From Undaria pinnatifida (lineage: Eukaryota; Sar; Phaeophyceae; Laminariales; Alariaceae), in NCBI GenBank assembly GCA_012845835.1, contig JABAKD010000029.1:1742970-1806969 (forward strand): a DNA stretch of 64,000 nt. Direction: 5' to 3'. A program made the translations under genes and the position numbers. The first letter of the stretch is position 1. Every line of letters starts with the position of its first letter. Below are positions 19,179 through 50,945 of this stretch, piece after piece. The notes under the pieces were generated by a model that had not been told where the DNA came from, did no database searches, and saw only the letters and a program-made list of their open reading frames with translations.

Positions 19179-20432
19179 ATGCATCAGGCTGTTGATCTTG
19201 TCCTCTCAGCCGTAGCAATTGCCTCATCATCGCCATCGCCATCATCACCGCTCCCTACCCCCGGCCTCAAGAACGCCGCCCGAGCCAAGAAACGGGGAGA
19301 GGAGGACGATTTTCAAGGAGAGACGGAAGGCCCAACTACTACTTCTAACGTTAGCAGCGATGGGGGGGGGGACAGCGGTCTTGGCAGCTCCTGGGGAAGT
19401 TTCTCCAGTGTGGTCGGACCCGATGAAGCTACGCGAAACCCTTTACAAGAGGAGGGAGAAGAGGACGACGACGATGAGACCGTTAGAAGGGGGATTTGGT
19501 TTCCCCCTCCTTTTGTGCCTCCGTCCCCACCTCCGGCACCGCCTTCTGAGGCAAGAGGAACTCCTTTTCTCGGGGCGGACCTCGCTGCTGCACCCCCCCG
19601 ACCTGCCCCCGCGTACTCTTACTTTGACGACGATGGCCTAGCCGTTCACGGAGGAGCCGCGACAGCGTCTGCTCGGAGAGGTGGAAGTGCGCGGAGCCAA
19701 CATCGAGGCCGGAGCGGCGGGGAGGACGGCGGGAGAGGGAGTCAGGGTGGGGGTGGAGGTGTCGGCGGTGGCGACGGAGAGCGGCGGTTATTGCAGCAGC
19801 AGCAGGAGGGGGGTGGGGGAGATCGGCGGGCCGGTGCAGGTGCAGGTGACGGTCATGGTTCACGAGATAGCGACTGCGTTAACGGTATCGATCTCGGCTG
19901 TCGCGCTGATGCTAGCCGTGGTAGCGCTAGCGTTGGCGGTGGCGGTGTCGTCAGTGGCAACGTTTGTCGTGGCATGAGCGATCGTGTTAGCGGTAGCGGT
20001 GACGGTAGTGTTGGCGGTAACATTACCTATGGCGTTGGTGATAACGTTAGCCGTGGTGCTGACGCTAGCGATAGCGTTGGCGGTGGCGCAGTTGGTAGTG
20101 GGAACGGTAGCGACCGGGGAGCGAACGCGAGGCGTCGACGACGACAGCAACAACATCCACAACAACGCCACCAGCACCAACAGCGGCAGCGGCGGGTTGG
20201 GCATGAGTCGAGCGACGGGGAGGGGGGGGGGGAGTTCGTGATGCTGGTAAGCAGGGAGGCGACTGTGAGGGAGCTGGCGGCAAGAGTCGGGGGGTTCCCG
20301 CAGGAGTGGCTGGAGGAAGCGTTTGGTGCTGTGGTGAGGAGGCAGGTGGAGAGAGCGGTTTACGACGCAAGGGCGCGGGCGGCGGTGAAGCGAGCTGTGA
20401 GGCTGCTGGATGGACGGGTTTCTTGGAAGCAG
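19179..20432 (+). CDS. TMCO4-like gene exon 1 (or first detectable exon)
   Basis: This exon encodes a disordered N-terminus rich in Ser, Gly, Glu and Pro, a Gln/His/Arg run, and then a structured tail with [27 protein letters not shown] and GRVSWKQ. The tail matches the helical region that precedes the membrane segments in DUF726 proteins. The donor is cag|gtgggc, phase 0. The Met at 19179 (MHQAVDL) was chosen because the sequence upstream is a C-run and repeat-like. The frame stays open back to a Met at 18951, and a good acceptor (ctctcag, ending at 19209) would instead make this an internal exon. Codons at 19862-20100 are built from GTTAGCG/GATAGCG-like repeats. Confidence 0.75.
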
Positions 20433-23400
20433 GTGGGCATTTTTTGGACGTTTTTTGCTGTTTTTCATTTTCCCGGATTATTGGTGAGGAGGCGGGAAAT
20501 GAGGGAAGGCGGGACGGAGGATCTAGGGAGGGGGGAGAGAGGATCTAGGGAGGGGGGAGGCAGGAGGAGAGTAATAGATGGGAGGGAGCAAGGGAGACGA
20601 ACGGGGGGGGGGAGGGGGCGGGAGGCGTTCCTTTCTTGTTTGATCTTGTTTTCTTCTCCTGAAAGGACATTAGTAAACGGAGAGGAGCGGGGAGGACCGA
20701 AGGGAAGGGAGGGTTTCTTGGAAGCAGGTGGGCGCCTTTTTGTTCCCGCTTCTTCTTTCTGGAGACGAAGATTGCAACGGGTGTGTACTGCAGGATGTAT
20801 ACTCTGGGTGTACCCGGGTACATACCCGAGTACAACCCAAACAAATGGGCTTGGGTACCTGGATACCTTGGTACACCCAAGGTACCCGAGTTTTTTTTTA
20901 TTTTTTTTATCCTCCATCGGATGGGGAAAAATCAAGCTTTAGCTCACCACACTTCCACGTATTTTCATAAGCGTCGTGTGTCGATTTAACTCAGTTGCTT
21001 TCGCAGCCCAACGCTAGCTGGCGCACCCTTCGGGTCCCATTGTAGGTATAGCGTAAGCTGTCCCTATCAGTGGTCTTCGTTACAACCCCGGCAGCGCAAG
21101 CTGCCGTTGTATGCGGATGCGTGTGTATGTCGACCCGGCCTGTCCCCTGAGGGTCAGTTTCGGTGGAGATAGCCACCCGGAATGTCATATTTCCGGGTAG
21201 TGTGGGACTTGCGAGAGATTACTGGGGGTACCCGGGTACATACCCGAGCATATAAAAAAAAAACACAACGCTGGAAGATTGGTAAGGAGAGGGGAAGAGA
21301 GCAGGGGAGGGAGACACGGAGGATGACGGGAGGATTTATTGGAAGCTGGTTGGCGTCGTTTTAGTCTTGTTTTTCTCCTCAGGAAGAAGAGGGGGAGGAG
21401 AGGAGAAGGGAGGAACGTTTCTTGGAAGCTGGTGAACCTTTTTTTTTTGTGTTGTTTTTCCCCCGGAAGAAGATTGGCAGGGAGAGGGAGAGGGGGGGGG
21501 GGGGGGGGGGAGGGAGGGAGGAACGGAGAGGGGAAGGATAGGATGGAGGAAGGGTAAGGGTTAGGATTAGGGTTAGAGGGGCGCGTGCTAAGAAGGAGGT
21601 ATACCTTTTTTTGCTTTTTTGTTTTGTTTTCTGAATGACGGGTCTTCTTGACCCAAGATCGTCGGAAATTCGATTTTTTTTCTTGTTGGAATAATTCTTC
21701 TTGAAAACCTATAATCCATAGCACCTTCCCCCCTCCCGTCCCCCCCCCCCGAAAAAAGAAAAAAACATGTTGTTGTGAGGTAGTAATGGCACAAAGCTCC
21801 TCTTAGGAGGAGCCTTATAAGGTAAATATTATTGATGCGCCTCTATCGTAGCATGCTTCGAGGGAAGAATGCTGGGAAGAGGGAGAGCGAGGGGGGAATG
21901 AGAGGGGGAGCTAGGGAGGGGTGAAAGGAGAGGGAGGGAAGGAGGGAAGGAGGGGGGGGGGGGCGATACTGTATTTGGAGAGAAAAAAGAAGTGAGAGCT
22001 CAATCCCATGGGTCTAGGTATACAAGGAAAACTATCGAATATCACGGTAAAGGGGCTCCATGATAAGTATTTCCCTTCTGAGGGCCCTAACTTAAAAAAG
22101 ATCCTCGCATACCTCGCCCGAGAAACTTGGTTGGGAGAAAAATAGTAGTGTTGTATACCGGATGTACAGTCCCATGACCTGCTGTAGGTGTACACACAAA
22201 AATATATTGCAACTACATTGCAAAAAACAAACTCGAAATTTCGACGTTTTTGGGTTAAACGCCTTGGCAACTGGAAAGCCGCTTCGGAGATAAATTACTT
22301 GAAATTGATATGGGGAGAAGTTTTGGGGCTCTAACGGAAGTTAAGGAGCCCCGTCATTTTGCAAAAGTATTTTTCGCCCAAAGTGCTACGAACCTCTTAT
22401 CACAGCGCGCGTCTAAAATGATATGTCGCTGGGATTGGGTAGAGCTCATCGGTTGGAGAACCCAGTCCATCATAAATGTTTCAGCCCGAAACAATGCAGG
22501 CCGTCGTTTCTTTCACGGGCCAGATGAGTTTTCGCGGGTCGGGTCGGAGTCGAGTCGGGGTTACTGTCACCCCGACCGGTGAGAGTGGGAAACCTTCTGA
22601 CCCGACAGGATCCGAGCCGTGAGTTGATCATTCCAACACTCCCTGTGACCCAGCCCGACTCGACTCTCGAGGTTTGCAAGCCTCCTAATAGTACAAGTAT
22701 GACCCTCGGGAAGGACGGTGACCACCACTGAAAAGCCCTAATAACAAATGCTACGCCCATCGTAGATTGCTCTTATCGCCATTGCTAGCTTGTCGCTGGC
22801 TTGTCGCCGACTATCGCTGGCTTGTCGCTGACCAATGCTGGCTGCCGCTGTGTGTGTCTTCACTGGCTGTGATGGGCATATGTTAGGTGGCGTTGACGGA
22901 GCAGGAGCTGGCGTCTCTGGCCCTCGATCAGGATGGCAGGATTCCAGACGGGGACCAGGTGAATGAATCGATAGCGACGGGGAGAGGGATAGCGATAGTG
23001 ACAGTGTTAGTGTAAGCGATAGCGAAGAACATACTTAGGAGTCATATGAACTCAAAAGGATAATACATCCGCAAAACAAGCGGCCGGTGTATTACGCTGC
23101 TTGCAAAGATGAGTATCGACCCTAAATTTATCGAACTATCGAACTCACAGCTTAAGTGTATAAAATATTTTTCTGAACAAGTGTTAGTGTCAGCGGTATG
23201 ATGGCGGTAGCGATAGCGGTAGCGGTAGCGGTAACGGTAGCGATAGCGATAGCGGTAGCGATAGCGATAGCGATAGCGGTAGCGATAGCGATAGCGATAG
23301 CGGTAGCGATAGCGATAGTGATAGCGGTAGCGATAGCGATAGCGGTAGTGGTAGCGATAGCGATAGCGATAGCAATAGCGATAGCGATAGCGGTAGCGGT

Positions 23401-26400
23401 AGCGATAGCGGTGGCGGTAGCGGTAGCGGTAGCGATAGCGTTAGCGATAGCGGTAGCGGTAGCGGTAGCGATAGCGGTAGCGGTAGCGGTAGCGATAGCG
23501 GTAGCGATAGCGGTAGCGATAGCGGTGTGGTGGTGGTAGCGTTAGCGATAGCGCTATTGGTAGTGGTAGCGTTAGCGATAGCGGTATTGGTAGTGGTAGC
23601 GTTAGCGATAGCGGTATTGGTAGTGGTAGCGTTAGCGATAGCGACATCGTTCGCGTTAGCGATAGCGATATCCTTCGCGTTAGCGATAGCGATATCCTTC
23701 GCGTTAGCGATAGCGATATCCTTCGCGTTAGCGATAGCGATATCCTTCGCGTTAGCGATAGCGATATCGTTCGCGTTGGCGATAGCGATATCGTTCGCGT
23801 TAGCGATAGCGGCGTCCTTCGCGGTAGCGATAGCGAGATCGTTCGCGTTAGCGATAGCGATATCGTTCGCGTTGGCGATAGCGATATCGTTCGCGTTAGC
23901 GATAGCGATATCGTTCGCGTTAGCGATATCGATATCGATTAACGATATCGTTCGCGTTAGCGATATCGATATCGATTAGCGATAGCGATATCGATTAGCC
24001 ATATCGTCAGCGATAGCGATGTCGATTAGCGATATCGTTAGCGATAGCGATAGCGATTAGCGATACGTAGCGATTAGCGATACGTAGCGATTAGCGATAT
24101 CGATTAGCGATATCGTTAGCGGTAGCGATAGCGATTAGCGATATCGTTAGCGGTAGCGATATCGATTAACGATATCATTAGCGATAGCGATATCGATGGG
24201 CGATATCGTTGGTGATATTGATATCGATATTGTTATCGATACCGATAGCGTTAGCGGTAGAGCAAGGCTTCGGTCTTGTAGTATCATACCCCGTTTTTTC
24301 ACCACCAGGTTTGGGCCACTCGCGCGAGTGACTCTTTATCTCACGGACGGTTAAGGCGTTGGGCGATTTTTTTGGTTGCAGCGTAGCTTACCCTTCATTG
24401 CAGATTCGTGTCGCAAAATTAAGGCAGCACGACCGCAAAGGAACAGAGTGGGCGTTCGCGCGCCTGATCCTGAACCACTAAAAACCGAAAATTAAGGTGG
24501 CCCCCCTACCGTAGCCTGGGAAGGCATCGATATCGATAGCGATAGCGAAAGCGATAGCGAAAGCGATAGCGACATATAGCCCCAGTACATACTATATAAT
24601 ATCAAATTAGCCTTACCCTTGCCCCCTCTCGCCCTATTTCCAGAAAGTAGACCGACGTGTTGGTGCGGATTCTACTCCGCGCCCGCCCCCACTCTCCCCC
24701 ATCCCCCCTCCCCCCCGCCCCCCTCTCGCTTCTGTGTTGTGTCTTGTTGTGCCCAACACCGCCCCCCCTCCCCCCCCCCCGCTCTTCGGTAACGCCTGCT
24801 TGTGTGTGGTGTGGTGTGCCAAACAGAACAAGGAGGTGTCGGTGTCCGGGAGATATTGGAAGGTAAGAGGCAATTTTATACTTACGGTATTAGAAGTAGA
24901 CTTACGCATTACAAGGTATATTTGTAGCGCTACGTTGAGCAGGAAGAGATCTACTTGTAGGAATATGAATGCGAGTAGCATTACATGTAGATTTATATAT
25001 GTATATATAGGAATGTGTAGGAATACGTGTAGGAGTTGTAGGAGTTGTATGAACACGTGTGTGTCCGAAGGACTAGTAGGAATATGTGTGCTGAGTGTAA
25101 GAAGCCGTGCAGGAACACGTGTACACCAATTTTCCTGCAGTTTTCCTTGGTTTGTTGCCATGGACTTATGAAACACCTGATGTAGATGCCTTGTTGCGAC
25201 GTGTTAATAATTAGTATTAATAGCCGTGACCACGAGCTGGTTTCATTGTTGAAAAACTTAATGTCACGTGTTATCGGTTGCCAGGTACCAGGCATTTTTT
25301 TCAACTATCGGGTACTTCGACCTACACGCTCTATGGATGTTGTCTTCGCTTTCTCGATATATCTTAGGGACGGACCTTAGGCACGGACCGTTACTGGTCC
25401 GTTAGTCTTTTCCGTGTTTTTCTTGTTCGTGTTTTCAAGTATGTGTAGGTTTTACCCTCAGGTATGTGTAGGTTTTACTCTCGGGTATGTGAAGGTTTTA
25501 CCCTCGGGTATGTGTAGGTTTTACCCTCGGGTATGTGTAGGTTTTACCCTCGGGTATGTGTAGGTTTTACTCTCGGGTATGTGTAGATTTTATCCTCGGC
25601 TATGTGTAGGTTTTACCCCCGGGTACGTGTAGGTTTTACCCTCGGGTATGCGTAGGTTTTACCCTCGGGTATGTGTAGGTTTTACCCTCGGGTACGTGCA
25701 GGTTTTACCCTCGGGTATGTGTAGGTTTTACCCTCGGGTATGCGTGTTTCGTCCTCGGCTATAATGCACCCCCCGTATGGATTACCCTCGGATATATGCA
25801 TGTTGTACCCTCAGGTGTATCCTCGGGTAGTTATGTTTGTTTTACCCTTAAGGGTATATGCGTGTTTGTTTTTCCCTCAGGTATACATACCCTCGAGTAT
25901 ACGCATGTTTTACCGTTGGGTACACGTGTGTGTTTTCGGGTACAGTATATGATATGATCCTGCTATTTTTCTGTTTTTCTATTTTTCTCTGTACCATGTT
26001 GTGCGCTCGCGCCCGGCGCGTCTTGCTCTGCTGTTTGTTTTCGCTTTTCTTTGTTATGTATATCGTACTATGTTTTGTCCTGCAGGTAGGATGCTTTCGT
26101 ATTTTTCCTCAGTATTGTATGTACCAAGATATGTACCATGCTCATGTCTGGCGCGTCGTTTCATTATGTTTGTCTTTGTTTCGTTTTTGTTGTGTCCCCT
26201 TCCTATCAGGTCGGAATGGCGGCGGCCGGAGGAGGCGTGTTGCTGTTCCTGAGTGGAGGAGTGGCGGCGCCGTCCGTAACGGCTTCTCTGTCGGCCGTGG
26301 GGTACGTTCATGAACAACTTTTTTTTTTGTCTACTTTTTTTACGACTCTGTCGTACATACCTGGTAGCCGATGCCACCAAGCCCATACATATTTTTAGTT

Positions 26401-44400: not shown

Positions 44401-47400
44401 CCTTGAGTTGAAGCACGCTTGTTCAAGCAATGAAACCCCCCCCATCCCCCCTCGTTATGAATTTCATCCGCTTGTTGCTGTGTGTGCGCCTGCACCTTGT
44501 TTTTTTATTCCACTCTGGACTGTATACGAGGCGTTGAAGCACGCCGTGTAAGCAACGGCACCCCCCCCCCCCTCAATCCCGACGCATCGTTTCGGCGCTT
44601 GCTGTCGTGTGCATACCTTCACCGTGTTTTTTCCCTGCTTAGAACAGTAAACGACGCCCTGAAACACGCCGTGCAAGCAATGGAACCCCCCCCCCCCCCA
44701 ACTGCCCTCACTCTCTACTCACCCTCTTGACGCGTGTTGCTGTGTGTGCGCTGCACCGTGCTTGCTTAAATGAGACCCTGAATGAAGCACGCCGTACAAG
44801 CAATAGAACACCCCTCCCCTACCCCCCCCCCCCCGCTATGCATTTGTCCTCTTGATGCTTGTTACTGATGTGTGTGCCCTTGCAACGTGTTTTTTTACCC
44901 CAGTCAGAGCTGTGAACGACTCCCTAAAAATCGCCGTACAATCAACGGAACTCCCTTACCCTGTTCCCAGTCACTCTCTGCGCACTCTGTTGTGTCCTTG
45001 CATCGTGTTTGTTTACCCCGCTCCGTAAACGAGGCCTTAAAGCAGGCCGTGCAAGCAATGAAAACCCTCTCACTCCCTATGCCCCGTTCGTGTATGCTTG
45101 CGCCGTGGTTTTTGTTTACCCTGATAAGGGCTGTGAACGAGGCCCTTAAGCGATCGGCCTTGGCACCAGTAGTGGCGGCGGCGGCGCTCCCGCTGGCTCT
45201 CCTTGAAGCGGCATCTGGCCTGGTGAGCTGTCATTTCCCGGTGTCTATTGTAATGGTGATCCCTCTATACCCTATAGTGCCAGCGTGCGCCAGCCGAAAA
45301 ATAATGCCGGCACTCTGTCGGCAGCCGACACTAGTCAGCACTCTCCCAGGTCTGGTTGTTCCCACGTCGGCGTCAAGTGATTTTACAGGCAGTGTAGCGG
45401 GCAACCGGCACTACCCAACCTGCACTATAGAGAGACAACTGCTGCTGGTATCCATGAATGTTTTTTCACCTTGAGCAGTGTGCCCACGTTTTTGCGGTCA
45501 CTTTACTTGAAAAAAAAATAGTACCTGGTAGTGCTTATTAATATCCTGCCGCGCGAATTTCTATATAGCCACAGCTGTACCTGGTATGTATTTTGTCTCA
45601 TTGTTTTATGGTCCAAACGACGTGTTCAGAAGAGTTTTGACGAAAAAAACGTCAGCTGTGAGTTCGATCAATTGTAAGGGTCGATACTCATATTTTTGCA
45701 AGCTGCGTGATATACCCCGGTCCCGCGTTTGTATCTTCTCAAACCTCTCGACAACAATGACACGCTGTGTTGAATCAGGACGACCCATGGGGCGTGGCAA
45801 GGAACCGAGCATCGGAAGCGGGCAGGCTTCTGGCGGCCGTTTTGTTGTCGAGAGAAGCCGGCTCGAGGCCGGTAACGCTTTTGGGGTTTTCCATGGGGGC
45901 CAAGGTAAGTAGGGGGGGGCGGGGACGAGGGGGATTTTGACGATATGTCCATTATTTTGCTGGCATAGGATTGGGCATAATTGGGCATTTTTTGGTATGA
46001 GCATGGAGGAGCACGATTGGGCTCCAGGCCAGTTACGCTATTGGGTTTTCTATTGGGTCGGGACATGAAAGTCCCGAAATTGCGCAATTCGAAGTGTAAT
46101 GCGAAGCAGACGTGAAAAATCCGAACATACCGGTACGTGCAAGCCAACGGAACGCGTGCGTCGCGAATCGCAGACACCAGAAGTCTGAGCATGTTTACCG
46201 GTACGTGAGGGCCAATGGAACGCGTACAAGGCGAATTACTGTAGACACCAAGAGTTTGGATATGCTGGTACGTGAAAGCCAAAAGACCAAGCTGTAGAAT
46301 CACCGGAAAGCTGACAACGAGTATCTATACTTGGGGGAGCGGCATCGCTCACGTCGCTCGTGTAACCATTAAACAGCAACAAGATGAGCTACGACTAGTC
46401 AGGTGAAGAGGGGATACCATATCATACACCTGCCCACCATGTACGAAATATTGTCGAGAAGGCTAACGAGCTCACGTCTTTAGTCTATACGGCGTAGGCG
46501 CTGCAAGTTGGGAGATTGGTACACCTGCCCACCATGTGTGACTAATGCTTCCGCTGTAGGGGGATGACTTAAAGGGTCTTTTGTTTTCAGTGGCTAGGGT
46601 CATTCGCGCGAGTGACCCCTCACGTCCCTCTGGCGGTTTGAAGCTCTCGTGCCGTTTGAAGTTGTGCGACATGAATGTGCAATGGAACGGTAAGATACGC
46701 TGCGCCAAGAAAAAACTCTTGTCGTCTTTCGTTCGTTATTGACGTACCGGTAATGGAATTGGGGGTACCCCCCCCCCCTCCCCCCCCCCGCCTATGGTAA
46801 CCTTGGTCGTGTATGCAATTTTGTCGAGAGAAGGTTAACCAGCTCACGTGGTAGGTCCGGACAGTGGTAAAGCTGTTGTACGTATGGTTCGGCGGCGTTA
46901 TCAAGGGGGTGGGTGGTAGACCCGCCTACGTAGGCGCTGTCAAATCGAGAGATTGGTTAGAACCTGCCGCCGTATGATAACCCTGCCTACGACGTAACAA
47001 CGCATTGGGGAGTGAAAAGCCTGCCTTCGTATGTGGGCAAAAAAAGCTGGACCTAGGGCTAGGACAACGGGGGGGGGTACCTCTTTTTTTCACAACCGGG
47101 TTGGAGTCACTCGCCCGAAAGACCTATGCACCTCACCGAAAAAAAATACTTGCGACGATTTTGTTTGGCGCAGCGTAGCTACGAACCATTCCGTTGCGGT
47201 TGCGTATCGCGAGGAAGCAAAAGTCAGCACGAAATCCTGGTAGAGGAAAGGGTCACTCGCGCGAGTGACCCCGAGCCGCTGCGAAAGAAAAGCCTCCAAA
47301 ACAACGAAACCCCCCTTCGTACCGCTTTTTTTATTCGTTTTTTTTGGGGGGCGGTCAACATGAGGGTTGTCGAGTTAGGTCATAGTGTGCTGGGTGGAGA

Positions 47401-50400
47401 ACCCTAACTCCGCACAAGGGGAATGATCGCATCGCATAGTGCGAATATGGTAAGGCACCCACGAGGCAGTTACATAGTAATACCCGTTGTTGTCTCTAGA
47501 ATGGCCACACCAGAAAAAAAAGTAAGTCATTGGCGCTGTCATCCGTAAGCAAGGAAGTAGGCACAAGGTGCAGAAGTCCATCTTACGAGCGGTTGTTGGA
47601 AGGATGCAGTTCACCTTTCATTAGACTCGCCGCCGAACACCTCACGGCGCTTCGCGCTTGGTGCAAGCAATGTCTGCCTGGTTGGTGAAAACCCGACGTG
47701 CTCCGTCCCGGCATAGTAGGGATGCGAGGGTCTATGGTCATACGACTACGGCCAAGCACAAACTGAGTACACCTCCGCCCTACCGTATAGCCTTGGCCTT
47801 GAGAGAGTTATAGTAGGGATGCGAGGGTCTATGGTCATACCACTACGGCCAAGCACAAACTGAGTACACCTCCGCCCTACCGTATAGCCTTGGCCTTGAG
47901 AGAGTGCTGATCCTGTTTTTTTTAGGCGTTGTGTTAAGGGAAGAGGTAAATCTGCCTCTTGTGTGCGTTACAAGCGTCCTTTAGTTCTCTCCCCCCGCCC
48001 CCGCGCCTACCGTCGGTCGCCCATTCTCTTTTTATCGTGCAGGTGGTTTTCAACTGTTTGGAGGCGTTGGCGGCTGCCCCCGGAGACCGCGGCCTTGGTA
48101 TCGTGGAGAACGCCGTCATGTTGGGAACTCCTGTGGGCACGAAGCGGGGGAGGTGCGTGCGTGCGTGCGTGCGTTGTTCACCTTGGCCGCGTTTTTTTTT
48201 TTTTCTTGTATCGATCAACCCTTTTACTGTCGCCAAAACCAACCCCACGCTAGTAGCCCAATGGCCTTATTCGTATACTTCGCAGCAATAGTCAATGGCC
48301 TTATTCGTATACTTCGCAGCAATAGTCTGTCCCTAACAGCATGGGCGTGGTTCATGTTTTATTATTGAACCCATGCTCGTCTTAGATGGAGCTCCCTTCA
48401 ACGGCAGCCCCTATTGCACCCGAGACGTAGGGTCGCACGTACCACAGTAGGGGTTTTGCTGTTTTTGGGACAAACGTTTGTGATGGGTTGAGATCCTCAA
48501 GCGGGGGACTACAATGGGACTATCGGTCTGCATGTTAGCACTAGAGTTTCACAGGTACATTTGTTGTATCATAGGACTATTATTAGTAGTGGTATTATTA
48601 TTTATTTATTTATTTATTATACTAGTATTAATAGGACTACTTGTGTAGCGCATAGAAATGATGGTCGGGTTGCGCTAAAGAATGCCTTCGAAGTCATGTT
48701 TCGGTTGATGTTGATGTTGATGTTGATGATGTTGATATTGAGCTAGCTCCTCATGTCGGGAGCTCGGAGCATTCTTAGAACCTTCTGCTGCACGGGTACC
48801 CTGCCGTGGGATAACTCCTAAGGTTCACTTTGGCGCTATCCCCTTAGTAACCCCACATTCCTTTGTGGGGGACTAGTTACTTGGAAATAGAGTGGGGTCG
48901 TTTCTTCAGTCGGAAAAAAAGGTTGAATTAACAACCCGTGCTTGTCTTGAGATGAACTTTCTTAAACCGTCACAGACCCCTTTAGGTTGAGTTGAAAACC
49001 CGTGCTTATACCGTAGCCCACATTAGGTTGAATTAAAACCTGTGCGTGCCTTAAAATGAGCTTTCTTAAACCCGTGTTTGTCTTAAAATGAGCTTTGTTA
49101 CACCGTAGTCCCCATTAGGTTGGATGAAAACCCGTGCTTGTCTTCAACACGAGCTCTCTTAAACCGTAGCCCCCCATTAGTTTGGATTAAAACCCGTGCT
49201 TGTCTTCAAATGCGCTTTCTTAAACCGTAGCCCCCATTAGGTTGATATAACCCCCGTGCATGTCGTCAATATGAGCTTTTTAAAACCGTCGCCCCCGATA
49301 GGTTGAGTTAAAACCCGTGCTTGTCTTATAATGAGCTTTACACCAAAGCCCCTATTTCGCGTAATTAATTTGACAGCTGGAAGCGGGCGAGGAGCCCGGT
49401 TGCGGGGAGATAAATGACACGGTTCCAGCTCCAGGGATTGGTTGTTGGCGCTGGTGTCTCGGACACAAAAAGCTTGGAAGGGTTCGCGCTTAAAGTGATG
49501 CCACGAAATTATCGCGCCATATATATGCTTCGCGTGCACCTAGATGGTTCGCTCGCCACTCCCGCCCCTTAAACACACCTGGTAAATATATACCTGGTAT
49601 TCACACTCCTATTCATACCATAGGTGGTAGCCGGCGAGAAGCGCGGTTGCGGGGAGGTGATTTTGTGTTTTTCGTTGTTGACCTTGATTTTTTTTTTCCT
49701 GCCCCTCTCTCGCCCTCTAATGTACCCCCAACCCCCGTAAAATCATGCCTGTTGCCTGGTGTACAAACTCCAAACGTGATATATATATGATAGGTGGAAG
49801 CGGGCGAGGAGCGCGGTTGCGGGGAGATTCATTAACGGTTTCAGCTCAAGGGATTGGTTGTTGGCGCTGGTGTATCGGACCAAATCTTGGAGCGTTGGCG
49901 TCGCCGGCACGTCAAGAGTGGAGGGCTGTGGCGTGGAAAACCTTGACCTTAGGTGAGAGTGATGTTGGAGGCGTGCTTTTTTTGTTGTTCTATGTATATT
50001 AATTCGTGTTGTTTGTGCTGCCTTTTGTACGTTGGTTTTTGTTTGTCGATTTTTGTACCTGTAGTTTTTGTATTGTGGGAAGGAGAAAAGGCGGGGGGAG
50101 GGGGGAGGGGGATTACTCGTTTCATGCATCGCCGTAGTCTTAAGACCATAGATCTTGGCATCCCTACAATACCGGAACGAAGCACGTCAGGGGGGTTGCT
50201 GCTTTTTGTACGTGCTTTTTTGTTGTGTTGGAGTGAAGCGAGGAGGGCGGGGGGGTGAAGTAGTCGACACGTTGAGAGTTGACAACTACGGCGTGGAAAA
50301 CCCTGACTTCAGGTGAGACCGCTGCTGGAGGCGTTTTTGTGGGGGGAGTTGTACTGCGCTTTGTTTCGTGTAGTGTTGGTAATGGTGGAGGGGGGGCGGG

Positions 50401-50767
50401 GGGCGGGGGGGGGTTACGATGAGCGAGCGAACAGCATCACCGGTAGACTACGGGTAGACAACCCCGTACAAGCATGTACAAAAATACAGTACCTGGTACA
50501 CAGTACCACAGCACCAGAGCATGCGCGAGCATCACGCTGCTTGCAAAGACAAGTTTCGTCGAAGTTATCGGTCTCCTAGCTCAAGCGTCTTTTGTACTTT
50601 TTTTTAAAGCTCAATTGTCTTCCTGCCTTCCCCTGCTTTTCCGCTGTCTACCCCGGCCCGTCCCTGTTTTTGCGAAATTTATCCTTGTCAGCGGTTTGGT
50701 CACGTGGCACCTGAGCTACTCGCGCATCTTGCCAACCGTCATGGCCATGTTGCGGTTGGAAGAGTGA
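19179..50767 (+). CDS. DUF726/TMCO4-like alpha/beta hydrolase, 13-exon gene
   Basis: The exons are 19179-20432, 22887-22958, 24827-24862, 26210-26301, 35423-35654, 35764-35903, 37124-38339, 43710-43843, 45129-45222, 45779-45904, 48043-48152, 49794-49952 and 50692-50767. They sum to 3,741 nt (1,246 aa plus stop) with no frame conflict. Seen: [12 protein letters not shown] near residue 390, hydrophobic Gly/Ala segments near 455-555, GYKMTRR, FHFLPL and CIPGW, then SWEALP, VLVWES, DDPWGVA, GFSMG (Ser about 1128), GTPVG, SRDW (Asp about 1189), VENLDL and TWHLSY (His about 1228). Known: this order is that of DUF726 proteins such as animal TMCO4, which are membrane-associated and carry a Ser-Asp-His type hydrolase fold; the substrate is not established. 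Inferred: a functional membrane-associated hydrolase. Odd points are the roughly 405-residue low-complexity insert in exon 7 and a gene span of 31.6 kb. The N-terminus and any upstream exon are uncertain. Confidence 0.88.
20706..21445 (+). pseudogene. Decayed tandem copies of the exon 1 donor region
   Basis: The last bases of exon 1 and the first of intron 1 (tttcttggaagcaggtggg at about 20420) recur almost exactly at 20708, and with changes at about 21330 (ttattggaagctggttggc) and 21415 (tttcttggaagctggtgaa). Each copy is followed by a T-rich stretch and by gga/agg-rich sequence, as after the real donor. None can extend the protein usefully. These look like tandem duplications of the exon-intron boundary. 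Confidence 0.7.
20900..21190 (+). repeat. Dispersed repeat shared with 60944-61100
   Basis: The ordered modules are ATCCTCC-GG, TAGCTCACCACACTTCCACG, TATTTTCATA, CGTCGTGTGTCGATTTAAC, AGTTGCTTTCGCA and CTGGCGCACCCTTCGG. Confidence 0.8.
21590..21865 (+). repeat. Dispersed repeat (see 10400-10650)
   Basis: TTTGTTTTCTGAATGACGGG, AAGATCGTCGGAAATTCGA and GCGCCTCTATCGTAGCATG occur in the same order as at 10430-10650, with an insertion in the middle. Confidence 0.65.
22887..22958 (+). CDS. TMCO4-like gene exon 2
   Basis: This exon has 24 codons beginning [15 protein letters not shown]. It is flanked by acceptor atatgttag| and donor cag|gtgaat, both phase 0. Joined to exon 1 it reads [18 protein letters not shown], which resembles the Trp-containing helix followed by an acidic helix in DUF726 proteins. 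It sits alone between a GC-rich intron and the hexamer satellite. Confidence 0.78.
22968..24575. repeat. GATAGC/GGTAGC hexanucleotide satellite, intron 2
   Basis: A near-continuous array of GATAGC, GGTAGC, GTTAGC and GATATC hexamers fills most of 23181-24255, with outlying patches at 22968-23026 and 24528-24575. A sub-block at 23640-23930 has a higher-order unit of about 30 bp ending in TCSTTCGCG. The array has no stop codons in some frames, so it produces long Ala/Ile/Val or Leu/Ser open frames that are not genes. Confidence 0.95.
24299..24410 (+). repeat. Dispersed repeat with CACTCGCGCGAGTG palindrome
   Basis: The segment interrupts the satellite and resembles 47089-47185: cac-cagg-ttgg, a CGCGAGTGA palindrome or its remnant, a GTTGGGCGATTTTTTTGG-like stretch, then gcagcgtagct. 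A third related palindrome is at 46597-46618. Confidence 0.5.
24827..24862 (+). CDS. TMCO4-like gene exon 3 (36-nt microexon)
   Basis: This exon has 12 codons, [12 protein letters not shown], between acceptor ccaaacag| and donor aag|gtaaga, phase 0 on both sides. It supplies the basic-aromatic lead-in to the first hydrophobic segment ([13 protein letters not shown]), as in DUF726 relatives. A 36-nt exon could be missed by automated prediction. Skipping it would keep the frame. Confidence 0.75.
24863..26209 (+). other. Intron 3 (1.35 kb)
   Basis: This phase-0 intron is an AGGAATRYGTGTAGGA-like low-complexity stretch (24890-25130) followed by the minisatellite at 25437-25745 and T-rich sequence before the exon 4 acceptor. 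No coding potential was recognised. Confidence 0.65.
25437..25945 (+). repeat. 23-bp minisatellite (GTGTAGGTTTTACCCTCGGGTAT) decaying downstream
   Basis: About 13 units of 22-23 bp with core GGTTTTACCCTCGGGTAT lie at 25437-25745, followed by degenerate units to 25945. The core contains a CCCTCGGGTA half of the GGTACCCGGGTA-type palindromes seen elsewhere (20810, 21230, 52090, 53680). Confidence 0.9.
26210..26301 (+). CDS. TMCO4-like gene exon 4, first hydrophobic segment
   Basis: This exon encodes [23 protein letters not shown], the Gly-rich hydrophobic segment ending in the GGVAAP motif typical of the DUF726 membrane region. The acceptor is ttcctatcag| (phase 0) and the donor is gg|gtacgt (phase 2). 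The split Gly codon is completed by the first base of exon 5. Confidence 0.87.
26525..27290 (+). repeat. Dispersed 460-bp element, forward copy (family E)
   Basis: The sequence runs from CCCTCCCCTCACC through an AACATCACCCTGTTGACC block, GGAGTCGCCGACCTAT, CTTAATGAGGAC, CGATCGGAGTATCACGCACAG and CGATCTCACAGCTGGAGTG. A partial and a nearly full unit lie in tandem. Inverse copies are at 32598-32990 and 34370-34800, and a further forward copy is at 60785-61640. No ORF or obvious terminal repeat was found, so its class is unknown. Confidence 0.75.
27291..28333 (+). other. Degenerate repeat fragments
   Basis: 27300-27370 resembles the 13900-14040 SINE body (CCCTCCCAGTAGTA and GGTCACATAGCGGGCCCTCC). 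27500-27845 is a degraded tRNA-like SINE (TGGGTTCAAAATCC, then GTGCATACTC). A GATGAT run is at 28028-28050. The rest is unassigned. Confidence 0.5.
28334..28713 (+). repeat. 375-bp segment nearly identical to 944-1317
   Basis: Both start in a TGTGTGTG run followed by TTCTTCACATTAAACCG and continue through CGTCGACATCCAGCACACCC and a long AAACAAAAACAAAA tract to GAAACAACCCAACCG. Only scattered differences and A-tract length changes are seen over the whole stretch, which points to recent copying. Confidence 0.9.
28868..29600 (+). repeat. Direct duplication of a pyrimidine-rich segment
   Basis: CTACTAGTCGGCCTGGTACC and about 150 bp after it occur at 28871-29040 and again at 29428-29575, with CCGCGGTYTCCCTTCTA in both. 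The purine-rich stretch between them carries ATAAATAAATAA. Confidence 0.8.
29640..30310 (+). repeat. Second copy of the 1-900 element (uninterrupted)
   Basis: GTTCATTCGGGG-GGAGCGCAAAAGCGGCAG matches 37-67. The sequence from about 29710 (TTTAATGTTTTATTTT, then CTTATAATGCCGGT, TTCTTGCAGCCTTTC) matches 490-900. The MITE present at 69-478 is absent here. It continues into a reverse copy of the TGTCCGTGCTGATTC repeat. Confidence 0.75.
30320..30790 (+). repeat. Family B repeat copies
   Basis: The CATGGCCAAATCACC, TTTGTGACCACAGAGCTCGT and GTGTTGTCTTCACAT-AAACCG modules seen at 8170-9010 recur here in two partial units. No protein-coding potential was recognised. Confidence 0.65.
30803..31105 (+). 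mobile_element. tRNA-derived SINE, about 300 bp (family D)
   Basis: The 5' head is CCGGTCGCCCCGGTGGCGTA with an A-box-like TGGCGTATCAGG and a B-box-like GAGTTCGAATCC about 45 bp apart, as in a tRNA promoter. The unrelated body follows (CTTGCGGAAAGCGCGAGAGC, CCTATGCGCGATAAA), ending near GAAGTGTGCGAAAAAA. It lies in intron 4 on the sense strand. Confidence 0.8.
31130..32261 (+). other. Intron 4 segment, mostly unassigned
   Basis: 31400-31625 holds two TGCACCACCTTGCGTGCGTG-like repeats with a family B module (CGTGCCGAAGTC, TGGTGACAGACTACGAAAC). 31730-31860 has two direct repeats of AAGGCGGTC-like sequence with ACTCGCTTGATGCGACTG. Nothing coding was recognised. Confidence 0.5.
32262..32555 (+). 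mobile_element. tRNA-derived SINE copy (family D)
   Basis: It has the same head, B-box-like GAGTTCGAGTCC, body and GAAGTGTAAAAA tail as the 30803 copy. It abuts a reverse family E element at its 3' end. Confidence 0.8.
32598..33080 (-). repeat. Family E element, reverse copy
   Basis: It starts CACTCCAGCTGTGAGATCGA on the + strand and runs through the complement of the family E modules to CAAGTGAGTCCTGTAGGTCG and the GACGTGGGGGCCTG block, followed by a second CACTCCAGCTGTGAGATCGA at about 33040. Confidence 0.75.
33118..33425 (-). mobile_element. tRNA-derived SINE copy (family D), reverse
   Basis: On the minus strand the head reads GTCGCCCCGGTGGCGCATCA with B-box-like GAGTTCGAGCCC. The poly(A) tail appears on the + strand as a T run at about 33112-33127. 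The flanks belong to family E sequence on both sides, so it is nested. Confidence 0.8.
33553..33884. repeat. Large inverted repeat (two ~140-bp arms, ~45-bp spacer)
   Basis: The arm at 33553-33695 (TGACGGGGATGACGCGGACG, CTTTGAGGCTGCTGGCCTCG, GTCAGCTATGTTGCTG) is matched in reverse complement at 33743-33884 with about 10-15% differences. The arms are GC-rich and could encode [19 protein letters not shown], so they may be a gene fragment copied and inverted. The transcript of the host gene would fold here into a long hairpin. Confidence 0.85.
34370..34800 (-). repeat. Family E element, second reverse copy
   Basis: It has the same module order as 32598-32990, from CACTCCAGCTGTGAGATCGA through TCAACAGGGTGATGTTGGTC to AAGGACGTGGGGGCCTGGG, then AACTATAAACCC and GTACAACCAGTGAGGAG. 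Confidence 0.75.
34840..35422 (+). other. End of intron 4
   Basis: This stretch contains two degenerate direct repeats of GGCTAGAAAGATAATGACGTGATATCA with GGTGGGGCGTTTGAACAA, at 34970-35070 and 35108-35200, then a C-rich tract before the exon 5 acceptor. Confidence 0.5.
35423..35654 (+). CDS. TMCO4-like gene exon 5, Ala/Gly membrane region
   Basis: The exon starts after attccag| with one base that completes a Gly codon. It continues [17 protein letters not shown], a long Ala-rich stretch, [12 protein letters not shown] and TRRTAG. The small-residue hydrophobic helix followed by GYKM and two Arg is a DUF726 hallmark and probably lies in or on a membrane. Donor ggg|gtgagg, phase 0. Intron 5 is only 109 bp, the shortest in the gene. 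Confidence 0.9.
35764..35903 (+). CDS. TMCO4-like gene exon 6, start of hydrolase fold
   Basis: This exon encodes [29 protein letters not shown] and HDP. These correspond to the first strands of the DUF726 hydrolase domain, where relatives have EEFEFLPL and then a strand ending in a GW turn. The acceptor is tgcgcag| (phase 0) and the donor is ag|gtgagc (phase 2). Confidence 0.9.
35904..37123 (+). other. Intron 6 (1.2 kb) with GATC-rich palindromic repeats
   Basis: This phase-2 intron carries ATAGATCATATAGATC-type short palindromes at 35970-36060 and two direct copies of GACGATCTAGACCATATAGATC at 36330-36410. It has no recognised exon. The TTGATAG acceptor resembles that of exon 12. Confidence 0.7.
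37124..38339 (+). CDS. TMCO4-like gene exon 7, long low-complexity insert
   Basis: The acceptor is gttgatag|; the first base completes an Arg codon and the exon then reads [12 protein letters not shown]. It continues through Gly/Glu-rich sequence (37260-37510), about 14 five-residue TVSNG-like repeats (37651-37850), a Ser/Gly-rich stretch and an Ala run, and ends EMEGSWE at donor gag|gtgagc, phase 0. SWE joins exon 8 to give SWEALP, matching PW-AL of relatives. The two ends are conserved domain sequence and the middle is an insert of roughly 390 residues. Part of it could be an unrecognised intron. The equally long open frame on the opposite strand is a by-product of the composition. Confidence 0.72.
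38395..38660 (+). repeat. ~38-bp minisatellite, TAGTGCCGGTTGAATAGTGC
   Basis: There are about seven or eight degenerate units of TAGTGCCGGTTGAATAGTGC plus AACTGCTCTC. The motif also makes up the ends of the short element at 45270-45435. Confidence 0.85.
38661..39080 (+). other. Unassigned intron 7 segment with GAGAGGGGAAAGTG modules
   Basis: From 38940 onward several imperfect copies of GAGAGGGGAAAGTGRCGRGATGGGTTTGA occur. Similar modules recur at 41840-42050 and 42285-42345. Confidence 0.5.
39080..39295. repeat. CCCGA/TCGGG array
   Basis: Runs of CCCGACCCGACCC in both orientations alternate with short unique linkers (GTGAGAATAGAAAAC, AATATTGGAAAGC). The same composition recurs at 22520, 40500, 42430, 51190 and 57830. 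Confidence 0.85.
39430..39475. repeat. GATCA pentamer run
   Basis: Five or six tandem AGATC units (CAGATCAGATCAGATCAGAT) lie in intron 7. Confidence 0.85.
39659..39730 (+). repeat. Short telomere-like TTAGGG patch
   Basis: CTAGGGTTAGGGTTAGGGTT gives three units in the middle of an intron. A related TAGGATTAGGGTTGG is at about 39745 and another patch is at 21550. They are too short to indicate a chromosome end. Confidence 0.7.
39872..40170 (+). mobile_element. tRNA-derived SINE copy (family D)
   Basis: The head is CCGGTCGCCCCGGTGGCGCA, the B-box-like sequence is GAGTTCGAATCC, and the full body and AAAAAGAAGAAATGAGAAAA tail are present. Confidence 0.8.
40480..40745. repeat. CCCGA pentamer array
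   Basis: About 17 uninterrupted CCCGA units lie at 40548-40635, flanked by degenerate CCCGACCC segments and GAGATTTGAATACCTCCTGA-like linkers. Minus-strand reading gives Arg-Val-Gly-Ser-Gly repeats, which are not a gene. Confidence 0.92.
40985..41280 (+). mobile_element. tRNA-derived SINE copy (family D)
   Basis: It has the full head, box-like motifs and body, ending in a 14-15 A run at about 41272-41286. The 42-bp tandem repeat follows immediately. Confidence 0.8.
41287..41412 (+). repeat. 42-bp tandem repeat, three units
   Basis: AGTCGGCGACTGGCTAGTAA plus ACGTATTGTTATAATATGAGAT is repeated three times with only a few changes in the last unit. Confidence 0.92.
41413..42430 (+). other. Unassigned intron 7 segment
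   Basis: Two related stretches (41430-41520 and 41590-41690) share GTCAGGACCYACRAAAAACRCC and TATGTGGTCCTGAT-like ends. GAGAGGGGAAAGTGGC modules follow at 41840-42050 and a C-run is at 42353. No coding sequence was seen. Confidence 0.5.
42430..42625. repeat. CCCGA array
   Basis: About eight tandem CCCGA units lie at 42490-42535 with flanking CACGGGTCGG and GAGATTTTGAAAACCTTCTG linkers, the same architecture as 40480-40745. Confidence 0.88.
42626..43709 (+). other. Rest of intron 7
   Basis: 42885-43010 resembles the 3' body of the family D SINE (GGGAATACTGAA, CCTACGCGCAATAAAAATGG). C-runs and CACACA lie at 43040-43145. 43200-43620 is T-rich with ACTAACACTTGATRTTTGYGTGGGA repeated twice. No coding sequence was seen. 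Confidence 0.5.
43710..43843 (+). CDS. TMCO4-like gene exon 8
   Basis: This exon encodes [30 protein letters not shown] and then [14 protein letters not shown]. The string VLVWES followed by a helix corresponds to the second strand and helix of the DUF726 hydrolase (YxLRWES in relatives). The acceptor gggaacag| has a poor pyrimidine tract, but an in-frame stop lies just upstream (TGA at 43695) and the phase-0 match to exon 7 is exact. Donor cg|gtaaga, phase 2. Confidence 0.85.
43844..45128 (+). other. Intron 8 (1.3 kb)
   Basis: This phase-2 intron contains 43990-44170, a sense copy of the SINE-like body found on the minus strand at 13900-14140 (CGACGAGGGAAGAAAGGGCT, GATGGGATGAGAAAA). The array of exon 9 pseudo-copies follows from 44389. 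Confidence 0.7.
44389..45070 (+). pseudogene. Tandem array of six decayed exon 9 start copies
   Basis: Units near 44390, 44519, 44646, 44770, 44910 and 45023 repeat, with changes, the start of exon 9 (GCTGTGAACGAGGCCCTTAA) followed by GCACGCCGTGCAAGCAATGG and a C-run. They are preceded by the GTGTGTGCGCYTGCACCGTG-TTTTT intron end. Spacing is about 110-140 bp. Several read [13 protein letters not shown]. Most carry early stops or no donor, so I score them as pseudoexons. Confidence 0.82.
45129..45222 (+). CDS. TMCO4-like gene exon 9
   Basis: One base completes an Arg codon, then [15 protein letters not shown] and the hydrophobic [16 protein letters not shown]. This is the helix equivalent to QEALKYTxLSGLxAALxWPxxLL in relatives. 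The acceptor is tgataag| and the donor is ctg|gtgagc, phase 0. Six decayed copies of its 5' part lie upstream in intron 8. Confidence 0.88.
45270..45435. mobile_element. Short element with CTATAGTGCC terminal inverted repeats
   Basis: It starts CCCTATAGTGCCAGCGTGCG and ends GGCACTACCCAACCTGCACTATAG, with several internal inverted GCCGGCAC motifs. It lies wholly in intron 9. It is related to the 38395 minisatellite unit and to 5760-5880. Confidence 0.55.
45779..45904 (+). CDS. TMCO4-like gene exon 10, nucleophile elbow
   Basis: This exon encodes [40 protein letters not shown] and [12 protein letters not shown] are the most diagnostic DUF726 motifs. The Ser in GFSMG is the expected catalytic nucleophile. 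The acceptor is gaatcag| and the donor is aag|gtaagt, phase 0 at both ends. Confidence 0.93.
46018..46066 (+). pseudogene. Partial copy of the exon 10 3' end
   Basis: GGCTCCAGGCCAGTTACGCT plus ATTGGGTTTTCTATTGGG parallels the exon 10 end (GGCTCGAGGCCGGTAACGCT plus TTTGGGGTTTTCCATGGGG) about 155 bp downstream of it. It has lost the GFSMG reading. Confidence 0.65.
47251..47272. repeat. Perfect 22-bp CpG-rich palindrome
   Basis: GGGTCACTCGCGCGAGTGAC followed by CC is a perfect inverted palindrome. Imperfect or shorter versions lie at 46597-46618 and 24317-24330, each beside related repeat sequence. Confidence 0.85.
47700..47905 (+). repeat. Tandem duplication, ~107-bp unit
   Basis: TAGTAGGGATGCGAGGGTCT through CCTTGGCCTTGAGAGAGT occurs twice in direct order (47706-47802 and 47811-47905) with almost no differences. 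A third, diverged copy with its upstream part (CACGGCGCTTCGC, GCCTGCCTGGT) is at 51780-51935. Confidence 0.9.
48043..48152 (+). CDS. TMCO4-like gene exon 11
   Basis: This exon encodes [19 protein letters not shown] and [17 protein letters not shown]. It corresponds to the helix after the nucleophile and the next strand ending in G-PV, which follow directly in relatives. The acceptor has a good pyrimidine tract (tttttatcgtgcag|). The donor is ag|gtgcgt, phase 2. The intron starts with a GTGC tetranucleotide run. Confidence 0.9.
48930..49345 (+). repeat. ~60-bp tandem array (AAAACCCGTGCTTGTCTT)
   Basis: About seven degenerate units of AAAACCCGTGCTTGTCTTMAAATGAGCTTTCTTAAACCGTAGCCCCCATTAGGTTGR are present, diverged enough to be old. 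The array leads directly into the first decayed exon 12 copy. Confidence 0.88.
49378..49476 (+). pseudogene. Decayed exon 12 copy A
   Basis: GGAAGCGGGCGAGGAGCSCG, GTTGCGGGGAGAT and GGGATTGGTTGTTGGCGCTG parallel exon 12 bases 49797-49885. A TAA falls in the exon frame after the AGAT, and the 3' half is lost. Confidence 0.85.
49619..49660 (+). pseudogene. Decayed exon 12 copy B (5' end only)
   Basis: ATAGGTGGTAGCCGGCGAGA plus AGCGCGGTTGCGGGGAG keeps the acceptor AG and about 37 bases of exon 12, then runs into a T-rich, unrelated stretch with GGTGATTTTG. Confidence 0.85.
49794..49952 (+). CDS. TMCO4-like gene exon 12, catalytic acid region
   Basis: This exon encodes [38 protein letters not shown] and GVENLDL. 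The SRDW Asp is in the position of the conserved acid (N-Y--xDWxL in relatives), and VENLDL precedes the C-terminal His. The acceptor is tatgatag| (phase 2) and the donor is ag|gtgaga (phase 2). Three incomplete copies flank it on both sides; this is the only copy that is open end to end. Confidence 0.9.
49953..50691 (+). other. Intron 12 (739 bp)
   Basis: This phase-2 intron contains exon 12 copy C, G-rich runs at 50090-50110 and 50385-50412, and a family E fragment (CATCACGCTGCTTGCAAAGA) at about 50530. The acceptor ccttgtcag| is clear. Confidence 0.7.
50260..50345 (+). pseudogene. Decayed exon 12 copy C (3' end and donor)
   Basis: ACGTTGAGAGTTGACAACTA then GGCGTGGAAAACCCTGACTT, CAGGTGAGA and GCTGGAGGCG parallel exon 12 from about 49903 through its donor into intron 12. 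It keeps a usable donor but lacks the rest of the exon. Confidence 0.85.
50692..50767 (+). CDS. TMCO4-like gene exon 13, C-terminus
   Basis: One base completes a Ser codon, then [20 protein letters not shown] and RLEE, then TGA. TWHLSY matches the SGHLDY motif bearing the catalytic His in relatives. The protein ends about where other DUF726 proteins end. The stop codon lies in the first unit of a minisatellite formed from the end of the exon. I saw no clear polyadenylation signal. Confidence 0.88.
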
Positions 50768-50945
50768 GACGGTTATGGCCATGTTGCGGTTGGGAAGAGA
50801 CTGAAAGTGGTGGCAATGTTGCGGTTGAAAGAGTCAAACGGTTACGGCCATGTTGCGGTTGGAAGGGATGAAACGGGTGGCCATGTTGCGGTTGGTACGA
50901 GAGTGAAACGGGTGGCCATGTTACGGTTGGAAGAGTGTAACCGAT
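50735..50945 (+). repeat. Minisatellite derived from the gene's last coding bases
   Basis: Six units of 33-37 bp with core GGCCATGTTGCGGTTGGAAG are present. The first unit is the real C-terminus and stop of the hydrolase gene; the other five are 3' untranslated or downstream copies with small changes. Confidence 0.92.

Follow-up and report, generated by a model that had tools for sequence, protein, structure and literature searches.

The window analysed here, a 64,000-nucleotide stretch of the genome of the brown alga Undaria pinnatifida (C36:1742970-1806969), contains a gene for a DUF726 protein in which several exons are accompanied by partial, mostly decayed copies of their own edges. The exons and the copies are compiled in Table 1. 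An earlier note on this DNA had proposed 13 exons, a number that our analysis did not reproduce: ten exons between positions 19179 and 50767 are supported by a consistent phase within two blocks and by DUF726 homology, and at least one further exon is expected between 35903 and 43710. A search of this interval by phase and splice signals returned many low-complexity candidates, none of them convincing. An open stretch of 468 codons at 37026-38432, of low complexity with TVSNG and glycine-rich repeats, is possibly the exon sought there, or a part of it.

The gene product is a DUF726 protein, because both exon blocks score above the curated cut-off of PF05277 (22.6). The C-terminal block reaches 217.3 bits (E 3.5e-64, profile positions 120-342) and the N-terminal block 37.4 bits (profile positions 19-97). 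We take TMCO4-like to be another name for proteins of this family, and the GFSMG read in exon 45779-45904 is presumably a motif of the type that forms the nucleophile elbow of alpha/beta hydrolases, so that hydrolase activity is putative here. No sequence match to the product was found in the PDB. A second DUF726 gene on contig C32 shares three exons with the gene in the window according to tblastx, and the junction of exon 1 resembles WRSVKIGAAMIGGG of this paralog when aligned by eye.

The edges of the ten exons were compared with their surroundings by queries centred on each edge and by 60-base tiles, and partial copies on the same strand were recorded within 1.5 kb. Position 26303 was taken as the end of exon 26210 in this test (final end 26301), and the test covered the edges outside the interval from 35903 to 43710. 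A local copy was found at six of the 19 edges, i.e. at five of the 18 splice edges and at the stop codon: donor 20432, acceptor 45128, donor 45904, where the copy is weak, the acceptor and the donor of exon 49794-49952, and the stop at 50767. The probability of observing at least six of 19 is about 7e-6 at a control rate of 0.026 per 60-base tile and 0.009 at a generous rate of 0.1, thus indicating that chance is a poor explanation of the edge copies overall. The earlier note had named copies beside exons 1, 9, 10, 12 and 13, and they are indeed present at these places, that of exon 10 being weak. Its copy numbers agree with ours as well (three at exon 1, six at exon 9, one at exon 10, three at exon 12 and a stop array of about six units); the six extra units before acceptor 45128 were counted by eye, and three of them align at 24 bits or more.

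Table 1. Exons of the DUF726 gene and copies of their edges in the window (identities are those of the copy to the exon edge)
Feature	Positions	Strand	Basis
Exon 1, start codon putative, donor GCAG/GTGGGC	19179..20432	+	open frame; in-phase join to 26210
Copy of exon 1 donor, 84% identity, frame still open	20703..20740	+	alignment
Copy of exon 1 donor, 72%, indels within exon part	21321..21376	+	alignment
Copy of exon 1 donor, 78%	21417..21460	+	alignment
Exon, ends ...SLSAV; edges without local copy	26210..26301	+	sequence, phase join, edge test
Exon; no local copy	35423..35654	+	tblastx to C32 paralog; edge test
Exon, begins VQEFHFLPL; no local copy	35764..35903	+	phase, edge test
Exon; no local copy	43710..43843	+	phase, PF05277, edge test
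Array of diverged units of about 125 bp resembling tract, acceptor and start of exon 45129	44389..45100	+	by eye and alignment
Exon (exon 9 of the earlier note)	45129..45222	+	phase, PF05277
Exon (exon 10 of the earlier note), contains GFSMG	45779..45904	+	PF05277 match
Short weak copy of the end of exon 45779-45904, 82%	46026..46057	+	29.7 bits
Exon; no local copy	48043..48152	+	paralog tblastx, phase, edge test
Decayed upstream copy of exon 49794-49952, 85%, stop and indels	49368..49488	+	alignment
Decayed copy of acceptor and start of exon 49794-49952, 75%, stop	49593..49656	+	alignment
Exon (exon 12 of the earlier note)	49794..49952	+	PF05277 and paralog match
Copy of donor end of exon 49794-49952, 78%, donor GT kept; longer alignment from 50249	50275..50334	+	alignment
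Last exon, TGA at 50765-50767	50692..50767	+	phase, PF05277
Minisatellite of 33-35 bp, about six units; unit 1 is the end of the coding sequence	50741..50941	+	self-comparison

The copies appear to be local rather than dispersed. A genome-wide DNA search (511,146,479 bases in 68 contigs) with exon 49794-49952 and its flank gave three matches, namely the exon itself and two within 1 kb. The regions of the exon 1 donor and of the stop retrieved only themselves in this search, which is insensitive to short units and failed to recover the copies known to lie near the exon 1 donor. A more sensitive search of the six edges on both strands, against 71 partly overlapping stretches (318 kb) of the same genome outside the gene, left five of them without any match of at least 28 bits. 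For donor 45904 there were three hits at 28.3-29.7 bits, two of them in overlapping loci, so that its local copy scores no better than the best match outside the gene. Dispersal over many genes, as expected of introners or transposon-derived introns, was thus seen neither in the sensitive search of 318 kb nor in the genome-wide search with exon 49794-49952. It is therefore highly improbable that we are dealing with transposons or other dispersed repeats that were exonised in some cases, even though such repeats do occur in the introns (around 45272-45453 and 47371-47785) and the genome-wide search would miss short copies. Since the exons match DUF726, they are probably the originals from which the copies derive.

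Repeats of other kinds are found in the same introns. The intron between 45222 and 45779 contains a dispersed repeat of about 140-175 bp at 45272-45453, to which most of the at least 47 further genome matches of query 45000-46000 belong. Positions 47371-47785 show translated similarity of about 46-91%, over short pieces, to the region of the C32 paralog, apparently owing to a dispersed element common to both DUF726 loci. The first intron harbors a GATAGC hexamer array of about 1 kb (23200-24260). A self-inverted segment of about 325 bp at 33554-33878, with 80% identity to its own reverse complement, is possibly a foldback element.

Our comparison was extended to kinesin and ABC-transporter genes of the same genome. 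Three of 130 kinesin matches were excluded as a duplicated gene copy; of 18 ABC-transporter matches we dropped six on contigs C45, C49 and C50, which are probably bacterial, and L060, a likely duplicate of L059. The long unbroken frames of the matches on these three contigs suggest the presence of bacterial contigs in the assembly. The resulting set of 40 loci comprises 11 ABC-transporter and 29 kinesin loci. Edges were compared in 37 regions with 69 exon entries (66 unique; 61 kinesin and eight ABC transporter), from which L053, where the copy may be a second domain, L055, because of low complexity, and alongside them L054 were left out. At a threshold of 28 bits a partial neighbouring copy accompanies 14 of 66 exons with their own flanks versus five of 198 when the flanks are exchanged for those of other regions, and at 36 bits the contrast is 11 of 66 versus none of 198. 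Examples in the kinesin and ABC-transporter genes include copies of an acceptor with the exon start and of an exon end with its donor, and the C32 paralog has similar copies at three places. The pattern is accordingly not confined to one gene.

The gene in the window is rich in such copies without being the richest locus. From exon 1 to the last exon, its rate of tiles with a copy within 1 kb is 0.265, compared with 0.19 for the paralog and values of 0.025-0.158 for eight kinesin regions. Higher rates of 0.29-0.36 were reached by three short loci out of seven that had been chosen for holding a dispersed repeat. Within 1.5 kb, local duplication affects about 33% of the tiles in its introns (mean of the intron rows).

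The central suggestion of the earlier note was that the duplications are centred on exon-intron boundaries. This would be expected if exon edges seeded them, for instance because pyrimidine tracts or GT-rich donors promote slippage, and if introns accordingly grew outward from their ends. Most edge copies do straddle a splice site, and a duplication of about 404 bp in the C32 paralog (L014 3058-3696; 63% identity) has its start within the final ~35 bases of an exon with a putative donor. The note itself had named the comparison with the introns as one that could refute it, and this comparison revealed no excess near exons. Within the gene, 531 intron points were placed every 50 bases, leaving a margin of at least 150 bases around each of the ten exons. 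A local copy was found at 36-41% of these points versus six of 19 edges (32%), and the probability of at least six is 0.73-0.86. The other genes give the same picture: with 60-base tiles at 28 bits or more, the rate is 0.111 at edges (95% confidence interval 0.067-0.166) and 0.10-0.11 in flanks at 100-1500 bp, whereas exon interiors are spared (0.024), and counted per edge it is 19 of 138 versus 343 of 2422 intron (flank) points (Fisher P=1.0). Copies at intron points are therefore at least as frequent as at edges, both here and in the 69 other exon entries, and the stop-codon minisatellite lies at no intron boundary at all. Seeding by exon edges is thus unlikely.

The orientation and spacing of the copies indicate how they arose. 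The 40 loci of other genes contain 121 direct versus 9 inverted copies at distances of 100-300 bp and 59 versus 4 at 300-600 bp; the corresponding numbers for the gene in the window are 75 to 16 and 61 to 14. Copies fall off with distance in both data sets. Apart from the left flank of the window considered below, the copies are thus mostly direct and close to their source, as local tandem duplication predicts, and for five of the six edges they are non-dispersed.

Their subsequent fate is recorded in the substitutions. We compared 24 exon copies, nine from this gene and 15 from other genes, with E values no higher than 0.002 and 20 or more exon bases (L053 and L055 excluded). Mismatches at codon positions 1, 2 and 3 amount to 66/420, 76/421 and 107/422 (P=0.0012), corresponding to a divergence of 16-18% at first and second positions and of 25% at third positions. 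Two functional copies would show a far larger share of third-position changes, and two neutral copies would show none. A ratio close to the observed one should arise when a neutral copy is compared with an exon whose own changes are concentrated at third positions, and the data therefore fit a neutral copy beside a constrained exon. Together with the mostly direct and distance-limited copies, the codon pattern supports the proposal of the earlier note that tandem duplication is followed by decay.

The earlier note had stated that only the real copy keeps the domain reading, which was not borne out. Among 11 copies aligned with exons of this gene, six are open and without indels, stops in the real frame occur in two (49368 and 49593), and four carry indels in their exon part, among them the copy at 49368. 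Most of the six open copies span only 5-20 codons, and one of the six matches is glycine-rich and of low complexity. Short copies of this kind cannot be judged by an open frame. The copies might still be duplicated alternative, poison or decoy exons maintained by selection, as could be read from the six open copies, from the stronger divergence at third codon positions and from the AG or GT that several of them retain at the splice position (by eye). This interpretation is very unlikely: the copies are partial, 12 of the 24 have indels in their exon part, divergence at first and second positions is unlike that of two coding copies, both upstream copies of exon 49794 contain stops, and the copies are placed in the same way as the intron background.

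The extent of divergence also bears on the quality of the assembly. The published Undaria pinnatifida assembly was built from PacBio long reads, according to the accessible text of PMC7058681, and noisy long reads could generate false tandem copies. Most of the edge copies are about 10-30% diverged, which is too much for misassembled duplicates, and the pattern recurs at other loci, leaving an assembly artefact as a very remote explanation.

These results are probably best explained by edge-blind local tandem duplication that acts across the genome and runs high in the DUF726 gene. Several observations weigh against it. First, edges lie slightly above the neighbouring bins at strict thresholds, so that a modest edge excess may exist: at 35 bits in the 40 loci the edge rate is 0.080 versus 0.036-0.075 in nearby bins, and at 32 bits in the other-gene set it is 0.095 versus 0.059-0.088. 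Seeding by edges would predict such a slightly higher rate. Second, the edges of the other genes are the ends of hidden Markov model matches, which are approximate and not proven splice sites, “intron” denotes any flank there and may include unmatched exons, and the sample consists mostly of kinesin genes. Third, direct and inverted copies are about equally frequent below 300 bp in the left flank of the window (16 versus 13, then 20 versus 21), which argues against a uniform process; at 300-600 bp direct copies prevail there as well (23 versus 8). Fourth, indels affect only three of the nine copies of this gene in the codon-position set, and the 24 copies are not all independent. One of them is of low complexity, and without it the mismatches are 62/402, 74/403 and 98/404.

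Edge-blind local tandem duplication would proceed as follows. Short duplications in the same orientation, of tens to several hundred bases, would be frequent in this genome, and some would be iterated into arrays. The process would have no recognition of exons, and the duplicated stretches would cross exon edges about as often as they fall inside introns. Where an edge is crossed, selection would retain one copy of the exon and release the other, which would become intron or 3' flanking DNA. The released copy would then gain substitutions and often indels, and would be visible as a decayed exon edge. The molecular step is presumably template switching or slippage during replication, and the arrays would have been enlarged by unequal exchange. 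The first observation on this locus is largely true and the general process was recognised correctly, but its focus was wrong, since the interest lies in a genome-wide rate rather than in this gene.

Among the papers listed in literature searches, which mostly did not cover subscription papers, none described repeated duplication at exon edges or decayed copies of exons, and none reported decayed edge copies as a pattern running through the genomes of brown algae. The nearest reports concern LRR exon shuffling in ROCO genes and the repeats of Ectocarpus, both considered below. Minisatellites and short local tandem duplications occur in introns. The copies described here resemble them in being direct, local, partly iterated and decaying, with little regard to genes; they differ in that their units could be assigned to exon edges and to a stop codon, and in that their frequency at edges was measured against introns. 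Introns can also be gained when an exon segment that contains AGGT is duplicated in tandem. This mechanism likewise involves exon and splice-site sequence, but no new intron was seen here, and it is the existing introns, or the 3' flank, that seem to have become longer. Mutually exclusive exon copies are mostly whole, spliceable exons. The copies of the DUF726 gene are fragments instead, and the combination of a whole exon with an open frame and both splice sites was not observed among them, although some short copies are open.

Exon copies in adjacent introns are described for mutually exclusive exons and exon-duplication relics in the accessible part of PMC5740500. The brown-algal ROCO genes exhibit duplication and shuffling of leucine-rich repeat (LRR) exons, as summarised in the accessible part of PMC11378527, which cites Zambounis et al. 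2012. As far as this source describes them, they are comparable in that exon units have been multiplied within a gene of a brown alga; the ROCO repeats are coding LRR exons, whereas the Undaria copies are partial and mostly decayed. Tandem repeats are spread relatively evenly over the Ectocarpus genome, which also has long introns, according to the accessible text of PMC12477816, and such an even distribution agrees with edge-blind duplication as far as that text goes.

A more far-reaching idea, which we put forward tentatively and regard as rather doubtful, is that edge-blind local tandem duplication may be a main engine of intron lengthening in kelps. Decayed shadow exons, many of them with splice-site dinucleotides, would then lie beside about one fifth of all exons and provide a standing supply of cryptic splice sites, occasional intact shadows might give rise to new exons, and the LRR shuffling of ROCO genes would be one selected outcome. 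What seemed to be the curiosity of one gene becomes a measurable process of the genome, i.e. the rate of duplication across exon edges, and exon interiors provide an internal record of selection on duplications. Local duplication, which affects about 11% of the 60-bp tiles in the sampled genes and about 27% (within 1 kb) to 33% (within 1.5 kb) in the DUF726 gene, would add a source of intron growth beside transposons, and a supply of cryptic splice sites.

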